DNA from: Candidatus Dormiibacter inghamiae | Lineage (GTDB): Bacteria > Chloroflexota > Dormibacteria > Dormibacterales > Dormibacteraceae | Assembly (NCBI GenBank): GCA_016464825.1 | Contig: JAEKNQ010000013.1 | Coordinates: 1 to 64,000 of the forward strand | Direction: 5' to 3' | DNA length: 64,000 nucleotides | Shown here: positions 10,472 through 51,247 of the stretch, piece after piece | Numbering within the stretch: the first letter of the stretch is position 1 | Layout of the letters: each line of letters begins with the position of its first letter | The notes under the pieces: generated by a model | The model's input: the letters and a program-made list of their open reading frames with translations, nothing else | Told to the model about the DNA's origin: nothing | The model's database searches: none | Made by a program: the position numbers and the translations under genes

Positions 10472-11352
10472 CCTCGCATAAGAGCCGTCCCGCTGCGGGA
10501 ACCCTCTAGCGGTACTGATCGGCCTTAGCTGTCGTCCCTGGCCAGTTCGGAGGAGTCATTCCCATAAGACCCGCCCGATGAAATGCCCGGTGAGGGTGGG
10601 CTAACCGCTACAAGCGCCCACAGGTCTGGATGCTCATCGGATAGGCCCGATACGAGAACAATGGTCTGGGCGCACTTTAAGCCGATTCTTGAGTCGGCCG
10701 ACATCCAGGTGGTCGCCGAGGCGCACGACCGCGCGGGTGGCGTCGACTCGGTGCTTTGGCGCTCCTGCCCAAGCCTTCATGTTTAGTCGTATGTGGTGCC
10801 GTCCGGACCAATAGATGGGCCGCGGCCCCATATTTCTTGCTACCGCCGAAGGTGGTCACCTTGCCTCCAAAGAGTCAGGACCGACTCCGGGTCAAGGACC
10901 AGTGATCGCCGACAGCCGCTGATTGGCCGGGGTCGTTCAAGGGTTCCGGCGACGCCTGGACGACGGTAGCGCCGCCCAGATCGCTGGCGCCCAGTGGTCG
11001 AGTTGCCTCAACGTTACGTTTCCCCATCGTCCGCGGACGGTGGCACTTGCCGTGTGAATCGCCATGGTCTTCGGAGGGCTGCCCCCACGTCGGTGCTGAC
11101 CTGGTGTCGCGGTCTGGAGGCACCCCTCTGTGGTCGCTGTCGGCGTCGTTCCACCGCTCCGCAACGTCGCGGCCGCCGTGACGCAGTCGCTGATCAGGCC
11201 CCTACCATGTCGCGTTTCCACCAGCCTCCGTCCGCGGCGGCCGAAAGCGCCGACCCTTGCCGTGCGGATTGCGAGGCAGGTTCTTCTGCAACCCCTAACA
11301 GACAGCAAGTGTGATTGGGAACGCTTCTACTGAACTCGAAGCGGCAGGAGGG
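10472..11352. other. 880-base region without a supportable gene
   Basis: Several short open frames occur on both strands but none has a ribosome site plus a recognisable protein. One plus-strand piece near 10,660-10,740 reads FKPILESADIQVVAEAHDRAG, which resembles the receiver-domain start of a LuxR-type response regulator and may be a decayed fragment. A small hairpin TCCCG-CTG-CGGGA lies near 10,488-10,500. The region looks like genomic debris bordering the tRNA. Confidence 0.4.
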
Positions 11353-11425
<73 letters not shown>

Positions 11426-11488: not shown

Positions 11489-11722
11489 CTAGCTGCTCTC
11501 CACAGTCCCCACGGCAGTGTGGATCTCCGCCCTGCCGCGGATCTTGATGGCGGCAGTCGTCGAGGTGAACTGAGCCACCAGTACCTCGCCACGATCGAGC
11601 CGCTCGGAGTGATGCGAGCGGGTGTCGCGCCCTCGCGTCAGGCCCATGATCACCACACCATCCTCCAGCGCCTTGATCAGGACGTAACCGCCCGCCTGCT
11701 CCTGTGGCTCAGAAACCGACAT
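11489..11722 (-). CDS. mtrB: TRAP-like tryptophan RNA-binding attenuation protein
   Basis: The product is 77 residues from the ATG at 11722 (GGAAG site seven bases upstream; an ATG at 11734 would add four residues). It aligns along its whole length with Bacillus TRAP: YVLIKALEDGVVIMGLTRG, then DTRSHHSERLDRGE, AQFTSTTAAIKIRG and a final TAVGTVES. Of the KKR triad that contacts RNA, Lys56 and Arg58 (Bacillus numbering) are kept (AIKIRG) and Lys37 is Arg. Tryptophan-pocket positions Gly23, Thr25, Gln47, Thr49 and Thr52 are kept; Ser53 is Ala. In Bacillus an 11-mer ring binds tryptophan and wraps (G/U)AG-repeat leaders of trp genes. The start overlaps the dnaE stop by 14 bases, suggesting translational coupling. 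Target RNAs are not evident here. Confidence 0.88.
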   Translation of the reverse strand: MSVSEPQEQAGGYVLIKALEDGVVIMGLTRGRDTRSHHSERLDRGEVLVAQFTSTTAAIKIRGRAEIHTAVGTVESS

Positions 11723-14700
11723 CGAAGCTTCCATTGCCGGTCCCGCCCCACTGTCCGTTTCCGTTACCCGGCGCGCTCGGCTGGCGCCCTTCCCGGCTCT
11801 TCTTCACTCTGACCATCTCAAAGCTGGTCACGTCCTGACCAAAGCACTCGTCCAACTCCGTCTTCAGAGCCGGTCCAGCCGTGACTCGGAAGTGCTCACC
11901 CAGGCCCACCTCCACCAGCTTCGCATCGACCTCGATGCTGAGGACCACCGGATCATCGCCCGGGTGCCGGCCAAAGACAGGTACCAATCGTTTCATCAGA
12001 TCAGGAGCGGTTCCCGCCGGCACCTTGACCACTGCCTTCTGCTGACGCGCCACTGGTACGCACTCGGGGTCGTCCCACGCCCAGACGAGATCAGCTATCA
12101 CTGCCGCCCGCTCAGTCTCCTCCTCGGTGACCATCTCCTCGCTCCCGCCAAGGGTCGGCGCGGGCGCCCCGCCGCCTCGCGCCAGCTCGACGGTTCCCTG
12201 CACTACCACCACCCGATCCGGCTCGAACAGGTGCCTGTACTCCTCGTACGACCGAGGAAAGAGAGTCACCTCGATGCTGCCCGTCAAGTCCTCCAGCTCG
12301 GCATAGGCCATGATCTGGCCGCGCCTGGTCACCACACGGCGGATCTGTCGAATCAGACCGCCCACCCTCACCTCGGATTGGCTGAGCTCGCTCGTCACCT
12401 GCGCTGCCTGTGTGTCCGTCAGCTTGGCCAGCTCGGTCTCGATGCGGTTCAGCGGATGATCCGAAAGGTAGAGGCCGAGCAGCTCCTTCTCCAGCCGCAG
12501 TTTCTCCTCTCCGCTCATGGGCGGCACCTGCTGCAGCCCGTAGTCGAGGGGCTGCTCGATGGGAGTGTCGACCAGTCCGAAGAGCGACGTCTGGCCGGAC
12601 TCCCGATCGCGCCTCGCCTGCTCCGCCCGCTGACGCGCCCGTTCCATGGACATGAGCAGCTGGCTGCGTTCGCCCAGCGCATCGCACGCCCCACAGGCGA
12701 TCAGCGACTCCACCGCCCGCGAGTGCAGCTCCTGGTTCCCGGCCAGGCGCTCACAGAAATCATCCAGCGAGCTGAACGCACCGCCCTCCAAGCGCTGAAC
12801 TACTATCTGCTCCACCGCACCCCGACCGACATTCCGGATCGCCGCCAGCCCGAACCGAATGCTGCCGTCGCTGATCGAGAAGTCGGTCCCCGACTCGTTC
12901 ACCTCCGGCGGCAGAACCTCGATCGCGCGCTTCTTGCAGTCGACGATGGTCGTCGCCACCTTCTCCGCGCTGCCCTGCTGATGGATCAGGAGCGCCGTCA
13001 TATATTCAATGGGGTAATTGGCCTTCAGGTAGGCGGTTCGAAAGCTGACCACTGCGTAGGCAGCTGAGTGGGACTTGTTGAAGCCGTACTCGGCAAACTT
13101 GGCGATCGCGTCGAAGAGCTCGATCGCCTTGCCCTCCGAGATGCTGTTCTCGCCGCAGCCGGCGATGAACTTCTCGCGCTGCAGCGCCATCCTTACCTTG
13201 TCCTTCTTGCCCATCGCGGCTCGCAGGAGATCCGCTTCGGAGAGCGTGTACCCTGCCAGCTCGCGAGCGGCCATCATCACCTGTTCCTGGTAGATCATCA
13301 CGCCATAGGTGTCGCGCAGGATGCCCTCCAGACGGTCGTGCATGTACTCGATCGGCTCCCGCCCCTGCTTGCGGGCGACGTAGGCGGGAATGTTCTGCAT
13401 GGGCCCGGGCCGGAAGAGGGCGACGGCCGCGGTGAGATCCGCGAAGGACTGCGGCCTCATCTCCTGCAGCATCCGCCGCATGCCGGCGCCATCCAGCTGG
13501 AACACGCCGCCCGTGTCGGCGGCGGCGATCAACTCATAGGTCTTGGCGTCCTCCAAGCCGATCTGCTCAAAGTCGAGCTTCAGCCCCCGCTGCTCCTCCA
13601 GCAGGCGCAGGCATGTGCTGATGATGTCCAGGTTCAGAAGCCCCAGGAAGTCCATCTTCAGGAGCCCGATCTCACCGACCGCCTTCATGTCGTACTGGGT
13701 GATGACCTGGCGCTGGCTGTCGTCGGCGACGCTCGAGCGGGGACCGTACTGCAGAGGCGCGTAGTGCACCAGCGGCTCAGGGGCTATGACGACGCCCGCC
13801 GCGTGGACGCTCACGTTGCGCGACACCCCCTCTAGCGCCCGGCCGACGTCAAGCAGCCGGCGCACGTCGTAAGTGCCGCTGGGGCCCGGCTTAGGCCCAG
13901 CGTGATACGCCTCCCGGAGCTCGGGCACCTCTTTCAGTGCCTCGTCCAACGACTTGGACCGGCCCTGGTACACCGGGATCAGTTTGGAAAGACGGTCGCA
14001 TTCCTTGAGCGGCACGTCCAGCACCCGGCCGACGTCGCGAATCACCGCCTTGCTGGCCATCGTGGTGAAGGTGACTATCTGCGCCACCCTGTCGCTGCCG
14101 TACTTCTCGGTCACGTAGCGAATCACCTTCTCGCGTCCCTCGACCGAGAAGTCGCAGTCGATGTCAGGCATCGAGATGCGGTCCTTATTGAGGAAGCGCT
14201 CGAAGATCAAGCCGTGCGGCAGCGGATCCAGGTCGGTGATGCCGAGGCAGTAGGAGACCAGGGAGCCGGCCGCGCTGCCACGGCCGGGACCTGTCACGAC
14301 CCCGTTCTGACGGGCGAAGCTGTAGAAGTCCCAGACGATCAGGAAGTAGGAGGCGAAACCGGTCTGGGCGATGACTGCCAGCTCTTCCTGGACTCGTTCT
14401 CTGGCGCCCGTCGGCGGCCCGGCAGGATAGCGCCAACCCATGCCCTCATCCACCTTCTGGGCCAGGTACGCCTCCGCAGCCATGCCGGCCGGGACTTGGA
14501 ACGGCGGCAGCAGGTGATGGCCCAGCTCAAGCTTGAGATCCACCCGCGAGGCCACCTCCAGTGTCGCCGCGAGAGCCTCAGGTGAATCGGCGAAAACAGC
14601 CGCCATCTCGGCCGACGTCTTCAGATAGAAGTCCTGCGAATCAAAGCGCCAGCGCTTGGGATCGTCGAAGTTCTTGCCAGTCTGCAGGCAGAGCAGTACG

Positions 14701-15365
14701 TCGTGCGCTTCGGCGTCGCTCTGGTGGACGTAGTGCAGGTCGTTGGTGGCTACCGTCCGGAGTCCGAACTCTCGGGCCAGGCCGCGCAGGGTCTCGTTGA
14801 CCTGCTCCTGTTCGGGGATGCCGTGTCGCTGCACCTCCAGGAAATAGCTGTCGACGCCAAACATGTCGCGGTAGGTGGCGACTGTCTCCCGCGCCCCGTC
14901 CAGATCGCCGCCCAGAATCTTCGTCGCGACCTCGCCGCCCAGGCAGCCGGAGAGAACAATCAACCCCTGCGAGTGTTGAGCCAGCACGGTCCGGTCGATC
15001 CGAGGCTTGTAGTAGAGGCCCCGCATCTGACCGATCGAGCAGAGGGCCATCAGATTGCGGTAGCCCTTGGCGTCAGCCGCCAGGACCGTGAGGTGATAAG
15101 GGTCACGGTCCACCCGGCCTTCACGGTCGTCCAGGCGCCGGGGCGCGACGTACAGCTCACAGCCGAGGATCGGTTTGATGCCCTTGCTGAGGCAGGCCTT
15201 GTAGAAGTGGATGGCGCCGTACATCACACCGTGGTCCGTCAGCGCCAGCGCGGGCATCTCCAGCTCGGCCGCCCGCGCGACCATGGCCTGGATCCGGCTC
15301 GCCCCGTCCAGCAGGGAGAACTCCGTGTGGTTGTGCAGGTGAACGAACTGGTCAGGAGCTTTCAA
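11709..15365 (-). CDS. dnaE: DNA polymerase III alpha subunit (replicative polymerase)
   Basis: The 1218-residue protein opens with a PHP domain (HLHNHTEFSLLDG, residues 9-21; ALTDHG; TNDLHYV) and contains the C-family palm with the acidic motif PDIDCDFS at 400-407 and VTGPGRGSAAGSLVSYCLG just before it. The finger region (ADTGGVFQLDGAGMR, IYQEQVM), a helix-hairpin-helix segment and a C-terminal OB fold (VRVGGLIRQIRRVVTRRGQIMA) follow. This is the DnaE1-type replicase core, without a built-in DnaQ exonuclease; an intact PHP may provide proofreading. Translation appears to begin at TTG 15365. The 3' end overlaps the TRAP-like gene, so the two are probably co-expressed. Confidence 0.95.
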   Translation of the reverse strand: MKAPDQFVHLHNHTEFSLLDGASRIQAMVARAAELEMPALALTDHGVMYGAIHFYKACLSKGIKPILGCELYVAPRRLDDREGRVDRDPYHLTVLAADAKGYRNLMALCSIGQMRGLYYKPRIDRTVLAQHSQGLIVLSGCLGGEVATKILGGDLDGARETVATYRDMFGVDSYFLEVQRHGIPEQEQVNETLRGLAREFGLRTVATNDLHYVHQSDAEAHDVLLCLQTGKNFDDPKRWRFDSQDFYLKTSAEMAAVFADSPEALAATLEVASRVDLKLELGHHLLPPFQVPAGMAAEAYLAQKVDEGMGWRYPAGPPTGARERVQEELAVIAQTGFASYFLIVWDFYSFARQNGVVTGPGRGSAAGSLVSYCLGITDLDPLPHGLIFERFLNKDRISMPDIDCDFSVEGREKVIRYVTEKYGSDRVAQIVTFTTMASKAVIRDVGRVLDVPLKECDRLSKLIPVYQGRSKSLDEALKEVPELREAYHAGPKPGPSGTYDVRRLLDVGRALEGVSRNVSVHAAGVVIAPEPLVHYAPLQYGPRSSVADDSQRQVITQYDMKAVGEIGLLKMDFLGLLNLDIISTCLRLLEEQRGLKLDFEQIGLEDAKTYELIAAADTGGVFQLDGAGMRRMLQEMRPQSFADLTAAVALFRPGPMQNIPAYVARKQGREPIEYMHDRLEGILRDTYGVMIYQEQVMMAARELAGYTLSEADLLRAAMGKKDKVRMALQREKFIAGCGENSISEGKAIELFDAIAKFAEYGFNKSHSAAYAVVSFRTAYLKANYPIEYMTALLIHQQGSAEKVATTIVDCKKRAIEVLPPEVNESGTDFSISDGSIRFGLAAIRNVGRGAVEQIVVQRLEGGAFSSLDDFCERLAGNQELHSRAVESLIACGACDALGERSQLLMSMERARQRAEQARRDRESGQTSLFGLVDTPIEQPLDYGLQQVPPMSGEEKLRLEKELLGLYLSDHPLNRIETELAKLTDTQAAQVTSELSQSEVRVGGLIRQIRRVVTRRGQIMAYAELEDLTGSIEVTLFPRSYEEYRHLFEPDRVVVVQGTVELARGGGAPAPTLGGSEEMVTEEETERAAVIADLVWAWDDPECVPVARQQKAVVKVPAGTAPDLMKRLVPVFGRHPGDDPVVLSIEVDAKLVEVGLGEHFRVTAGPALKTELDECFGQDVTSFEMVRVKKSREGRQPSAPGNGNGQWGGTGNGSFDVGF

Positions 15366-50014: not shown

Positions 50015-51247
50015 ATGGACCAGGAGCAGTGTCGGCGCCTCGACGCCGCCGACCCCCTGGCCGGCTGTCGGGCCGCATTCGAGCTGCCGCCCGGCGTCAT
50101 CTACCTCGACGGCAACTCGCTGGGTCCGCTCAGCAGGAGCGCCCGGCAGCGCCTCGACTTGGCGCTGGGGAACGAATGGGCCCAGGGTTTGATACTGGGC
50201 TGGACGGAGAGCGGCTGGCTGGAAGCTCCCCAGCGCGTAGGCGACCGGATCGGAAGCCTGATCGGAGCGGCGCGGGGCCAGGTGGTCGTGAGCGACAACA
50301 CTACTGTCAACCTCTACAAGCTGGCCTCCGCTGCGCTGACGCTCCGGCCCGACCGGAGGACGGTCCTGATCCAGGACGACGACTTCCCCACCGATCGCTT
50401 CGTGGCCGCCGGCCTCGCCGCGCGTTCCGGCGGTCGCGTGCAGGTGCGGCACTTCAGGCCTGACGCCATGGCAGGTTCGCTGGATGCAGGCACCGCCCTG
50501 GTGATCCTGAGCCAGGTGGACTACCGGACGGGACGGCTGCACGACATGCCGAGCCTCACTCGGACGATCCATGAGGTCGGGGCGTTGGTTCTGTGGGACC
50601 TGTCGCACAGCGCGGGCGCCGTGCCAGTCGCGCTGGACAGCTCTGGCGTGGACCTCGCCGCCGGCTGTACTTACAAGTTCTTGAACGGGGGCCCCGGTTC
50701 GCCCGCCTACTGCTATGTGGCCCGGCGGCTCCAGTCCCAGGTCCGCTCTCCGATCTGGAGCTGGTTGGGTCATGTCGAGCCATTCGCCTTCGGCCCGAGC
50801 TATGAGCCTGGTCCCGGCCCGAAGAGCTTCATAACTGGCACGCCGGGCATCCTCGGCCTGGCCGCGCTCGAGGGAGCGCTCGAAGCCTGGCGCGGCGTCG
50901 ACCTGGCCCTACTCCGCCAGAAGTCGCTTGATCTGGCGGAGACCTTCATCGCGCTGGTCGAAGCACGCTGCGCCAGTGCTGGGCTGGAACTGCTCACCCC
51001 GCGAGAGCCTGAGCTGCGCGGCTCGCAGGTCTCCTGGCGGCATCCCGGGGCGCAGCAGATCATCGCGGAGCTGATCCGGCGGGGCGTGATCGGCGATTTC
51101 CGTCCACCTGATATCTGCCGCTTCGGCCTGACGCCGCTTTACTTGGGCTTCGAGGATGTCTGGCACGCCGTCGAGCAGTTGCGCTCGGTGCTGCAGAGCT
51201 TCGCCGTCGGCGAGCCAACCACGGCAGTGGTTCCGGCAACTCCCTGA
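50015..51247 (+). CDS. kynU: Kynureninase
   Basis: The 410-residue PLP enzyme has the family features: [11 protein letters not shown] (30-39), [23 protein letters not shown], the PLP-contact Asp195 in [13 protein letters not shown], and the Schiff-base Lys221 in [14 protein letters not shown]-terminal SWRHP and [15 protein letters not shown] complete it. It cleaves kynurenine to anthranilate and alanine (and 3-hydroxykynurenine to 3-hydroxyanthranilate). No tryptophan dioxygenase or formamidase gene is adjacent, so the upstream steps are encoded elsewhere or it recycles kynurenine to anthranilate. Confidence 0.95.

Follow-up and report, generated by a model that had tools for sequence, protein, structure and literature searches.

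A TRAP homologue in Dormibacteraceae and its probable target, a NAG-triplet array on the trpE start codon

The TRAP (MtrB) protein of Dormibacteraceae, once activated by tryptophan, very likely represses translation of the trp operon at the trpE leader. From sequence comparison we propose a short series of interlinked steps. The TRAP ring would bind free tryptophan, and the tryptophan-bound ring would then wrap the trp operon mRNA around itself at the NAG triplets of the trpE leader. Bound there, TRAP would mask the ribosome-binding site and the trpE start codon, repressing the translation of trpE, and the downstream trp genes would be repressed through their coupling to trpE; without tryptophan, TRAP would let go of the leader. 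Sequence shows which family the protein belongs to, and it shows the array, where the array lies, that it is conserved and that it occurs together with mtrB; that the protein forms a ring, binds tryptophan and RNA and acts as a repressor we infer. In Bacillus, TRAP is known to block the ribosome directly at trpG, trpP and ycbK (PMC11255114), and this mode of action is favoured here because the array lies on the trpE start, is preceded by a hairpin and stands in a leader with no terminator-like site.

The window, a 64-kb stretch of DNA, contains an 81-codon open reading frame on the minus strand (11489-11734), which a sequence-only reading had taken for a TRAP homologue. Searches against Pfam TrpBP and against TRAP structures bore this out with strong matches to both. 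TrpBP (PF02081) matches residues 16-80 (E = 2.7e-33; 114 bits, where the cut-off is 21.3) and its model positions 4-68 of 69 are covered, which makes this a full-domain match, and solved TRAP structures in the PDB match with E-values down to 2.5e-45. In the profile search this was the sole TrpBP match in its own genome. The best NCBIfam model is MtrB at 115.6 bits, 1.4 bits short of the equivalog cut-off of 117, which is a curated name threshold and not a biological feature; the shortfall is likely due to family-specific substitutions. An upstream in-frame ATG at 11734 would give a protein of 81 residues. The second ATG (11722, 77 residues) is the more likely start, since GGAAG lies five bases upstream of it and relatives start at about the same position. 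The overlap with dnaE in Table 1 is counted from this second ATG and would be 26 nt if the first were used.

Table 1 Coordinates of the features discussed (positions in the window unless another sequence is named)
Feature	Position	Strand	Evidence or remark
mtrB (TRAP), 77 aa	11489..11722	-	Pfam TrpBP 114 bits, PDB TRAP matches, start region kept in relatives
dnaE, DNA polymerase III alpha	11709..15365	-	NCBIfam 1351.8 bits, above cut-off; overlaps mtrB 5' end by 14 nt
tRNA-Thr (GGT)	11351..11425	-	ARAGORN; first gene after mtrB, adjacent but outside the mechanism
Kynureninase	50015..51247		
trpE leader of the window's genome	G000:C3:54953-55007		outside the window
M29 metallopeptidase gene	L108 12835-14040 (G000:C3)		between trpC and trpF

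The suspicion of a high-GC host outside the Firmicutes proved right, as the DNA belongs to a soil bacterium of Ca. Dormibacteraceae, with the nearest named contig from Ca. Dormiibacter spiritus (96% identity). Across a sample of the phylum, TrpBP/TRAP was found in 17 of 301 genomes, every one of them in Dormibacteraceae, and at the level of the class it was present in 34 of 42 Dormibacteraceae genomes against none of 68 others. The eight Dormibacteraceae genomes with no TRAP match are estimated to be 59-93% complete, and clear trpE-leader arrays are present all the same in three (G309, leader L066; G311, L063; G315, L056); some of these absences are therefore probably assembly gaps. The MtrB proteins of Dormibacterota form one group (support 99/94, in a tree built on few alignment columns). 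One contig titled Bacillota (L040) carries a DnaE near that of the window and an MtrB within the Dormibacterota group, and its record is probably misnamed. A literature search in an open-access collection yielded no paper on TRAP in Dormibacterota.

The regulon, as far as sequence can indicate it, is most likely the trp operon, because of the NAG array in its trpE leader. In the window's genome this array has 11 NAG triplets spaced 2-3 nt apart (z = 12.0 against dinucleotide shuffles): CAG cc GAG ag TAG ac GAG ac CAG cgt CAG ac CAG ttc TAG aa GAG ag GAG at GAG. Four of the 11 triplets are CAG and fall outside the classical (G/U)AG, the first CAG lies within the 3' arm of the preceding hairpin, and the trpE ATG lies inside the final 'GAG at GAG'. 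A fixed-spacing pattern search of the same genome gave no excess over the reversed control, and a spacing-tolerant scan was therefore used. A sequence-only NAG model, derived from shortened arrays, placed the trpE leader first both in the window's genome (E = 0.07) and in many relatives; the ranking is partly circular because those arrays come mostly from these trpE leaders. The genes that follow the leader are trpE, trpG, trpD, trpC, an M29 peptidase gene, trpF, trpB and trpA. The order trpEGDCFBA is the same in the 12 genomes read, one of which is cut by a contig end; the M29 insert occurs among them only in the window's own genus and is absent from the ten genomes outside it.

The position of the array bears on how TRAP would act. 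In 21 of 23 Dormibacteraceae leaders its 3' end overlaps the trpE start codon or lies no more than 6 nt from it, and in 14 Bacillota leaders from genomes with mtrB the array ends 64-178 nt before trpE (median 85), the trpE start codons having been hand-picked for these distances. Weak arrays also cover the trpE start in two Bacillota leaders (L222, L223), and the arrangement may thus not be unique to Dormibacteraceae. The genome of the Bacillota MAG L047 gave no trpE match, and other Bacillota genomes supplied the comparison leaders. Just before the array stands a short 5' hairpin. Across 14 aligned leaders its nine pairs are formed in 97.6% of cells, with compensatory changes on both sides in 11, and no shuffle reached this level of pairing; in the window's own genus the hairpin has a different sequence at the same position. 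The fold energy of the whole own leader is not unusual (z = -0.78), a search for terminator-like or consensus promoter-like sites in it found none, and comparison with Rfam gave nothing over the gathering score. That TRAP acts on this leader mainly by transcription attenuation, as at trpEDCFBA of Bacillus, is improbable: the protein family and the operon are those of Bacillus, a 5' hairpin likewise stands ahead of the array, and in B. subtilis TRAP can bring about termination even when the attenuator is not intact (PMC3913778), but no terminator-like stem with a T run was found between the promoter and trpE, and the array reaches the trpE start codon so that no leader is left after it.

Translational repression at trpE also agrees with the distribution of the array. 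For 24 Dormibacteraceae trpE leaders the mean z was 5.45 against dinucleotide shuffles, with p <= 0.05 in 21 of them, and for 16 trpE leaders of the mtrB-less sister families f2-f4 it was -0.23, with p <= 0.05 in none; the score counts NAG triplets with gaps of 2-3 nt upstream of trpE, the use of 300 shuffles limits p, and leaders that are related do not count as independent. The arrays are weak in three Dormibacteraceae leaders (L060, L062, L079). The leaders L060, L061 and L062 have only three or four triplets, as might be expected if the repeats were a mere purine-rich ribosome-binding sequence that TRAP does not use, a reading to which we give very little credence since neither the dinucleotide-keeping shuffles nor the sister-family leaders give such arrays and the window's own genome has 11 triplets in a leader that is its best match. 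What counts against the repressor model is that Ser32 and Arg37 replace the base-stacking Phe32 and Lys37, that three leaders are weak, that the array of L059 is out of frame with trpE and that the NCBIfam cut-off was missed.

The overlap of mtrB with the end of dnaE had been pointed out from the window alone; it was seen again here, and the comparison with relatives found overlap or near overlap in most of Dormibacteraceae. A tRNA-Thr (GGT) gene also lies 3' of mtrB in seven of the ten relatives checked. The same early reading had called dnaE an unexpected partner, a view that did not hold. TRAP is found in 152 of 300 sampled genomes of the Bacillota phylum to which L047 belongs, and among 30 mtrB loci from that phylum a dnaE match lies just upstream in 23 and an accD match downstream in 18; in L047 itself the order is dnaE, malic enzyme, mtrB, accD. 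The Bacillota and Dormibacteraceae neighbourhoods are alike in that mtrB lies downstream of dnaE. They differ in that Dormibacteraceae mtrB overlaps or abuts dnaE, and in that the window has a tRNA-Thr gene after mtrB instead of accD. The pairing thus looks like an inherited or repeated neighbourhood, which is weak ground for a role in replication, and no link to replication is needed since the neighbourhood is also common in Bacillota. A joint transfer of dnaE and mtrB from Bacillota was considered and is not supported, as the DnaE of the family groups with its own class (100/99). A functional overlap, by which TRAP dosage or activity would be tied to replication, would fit the conservation of the arrangement across Dormibacteraceae, yet we consider it highly unlikely given the frequent dnaE upstream of mtrB in Bacillota, often with an accD match next, and a dnaE vicinity without a NAG array.

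The TRAP of this family has changed at several positions. The window protein has Ser for Phe32, Arg for Lys37, Thr for His51 and Ala for Ser53 of Bacillus TRAP; the change at position 37 had been recognised at the outset, and the alignment adds three further contact-region changes, at 32, 51 and 53. Ser32 and Arg37 each occur in 30 of 30 Dormibacteraceae TRAPs and Ala53 in 29 of 29, and 28 of 29 carry Leu or Thr at position 51, with Leu in most relatives. In 31 Bacillota TRAPs, Phe32, Lys37 and Ser53 are present throughout and His51 in 29. The basic triad is Arg37, Lys56 and Arg58 in the window protein and Lys37, Lys56 and Arg58 in Bacillus. Thr25, Gln47, Thr49, His51 and Ser53 are tryptophan-pocket residues of TRAP, and the first three are invariant in Dormibacteraceae wherever they are aligned. 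By alignment, each of the four near-fixed changes (F32S, K37R, H51L/T, S53A) falls on or close to a known contact with RNA or tryptophan. The TRAP crystal structure shows Phe32 stacked against the third base of the triplet and Lys37 against the first (PMC4854314). In the Dormibacteraceae arrays 22 of 115 triplets are CAG, and in those of Bacillota 5 of 149 (Fisher p = 4.7e-5), although triplets cannot be treated as independent and base composition accounts for some of the difference, as Dormibacteraceae spacers are richer in C. A changed RNA code, in which TRAP with Ser32 and Arg37 would accept CAG besides GAG and UAG, is a tentative proposal that we hold less probable than its contrary. Residue 11 of Dormibacteraceae TRAP is Leu and the C-terminus is short. 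In Bacillus TRAP, the V11L and E71stop changes give a 12-mer (PMC3184956), and by analogy Leu11 and the short C-terminus suggest a ring of 12 subunits here.

Other candidate targets were sought in the 64-kb window. Kynureninase is encoded there, as first reported, and no NAG array anywhere in the window rose above the reversed-sequence control, at kynureninase, dnaE and mtrB included, in agreement with the earlier failure to spot a repeat leader in front of kynureninase. A search of 31 genomes for anti-TRAP (PF15777) brought no match above the cut-off. In L150 and L151, near position 1501, an array of five GAG triplets lies on the start codon of a gene for a putative B12-binding corrinoid-like protein. 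It is possible that this array is a second TRAP target or that it arose by chance; it is seen only in these two near-identical genomes of genus g7, and we do not claim it as a target.

TRAP is a textbook example of a regulator, and most descriptions of it come from Bacillus; the B. subtilis trp leader has a 5' hairpin before its array. A second, distant lineage with a matching protein and RNA target offers a natural experiment on RNA recognition by TRAP, because the array stays although residues believed to stack on its triplets are replaced. The present results also suggest direct ribosome blocking on trpE itself and show the dnaE pairing to be a common neighbourhood. The Dormibacteraceae system resembles that of B. 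subtilis and Geobacillus stearothermophilus in the protein family over the full domain and in a trp operon leader with NAG triplets spaced by 2-3 nt, and resembles that of B. subtilis in the 5' hairpin ahead of the array. It differs from Bacillus/Geobacillus attenuation in that the array overlaps the trpE start codon, with no terminator-like site in the leader and no anti-TRAP match in the genomes searched, and from the TRAP proteins of these genera in having Ser32, Arg37, Thr51 and Ala53 at or near the RNA and tryptophan contacts. With the repression of trpG, trpP and ycbK in B. subtilis (PMC11255114) it shares a binding site, here a putative one, in the translation initiation region and a predicted ribosome block, but the target here is the first gene of the trp operon itself, trpE.
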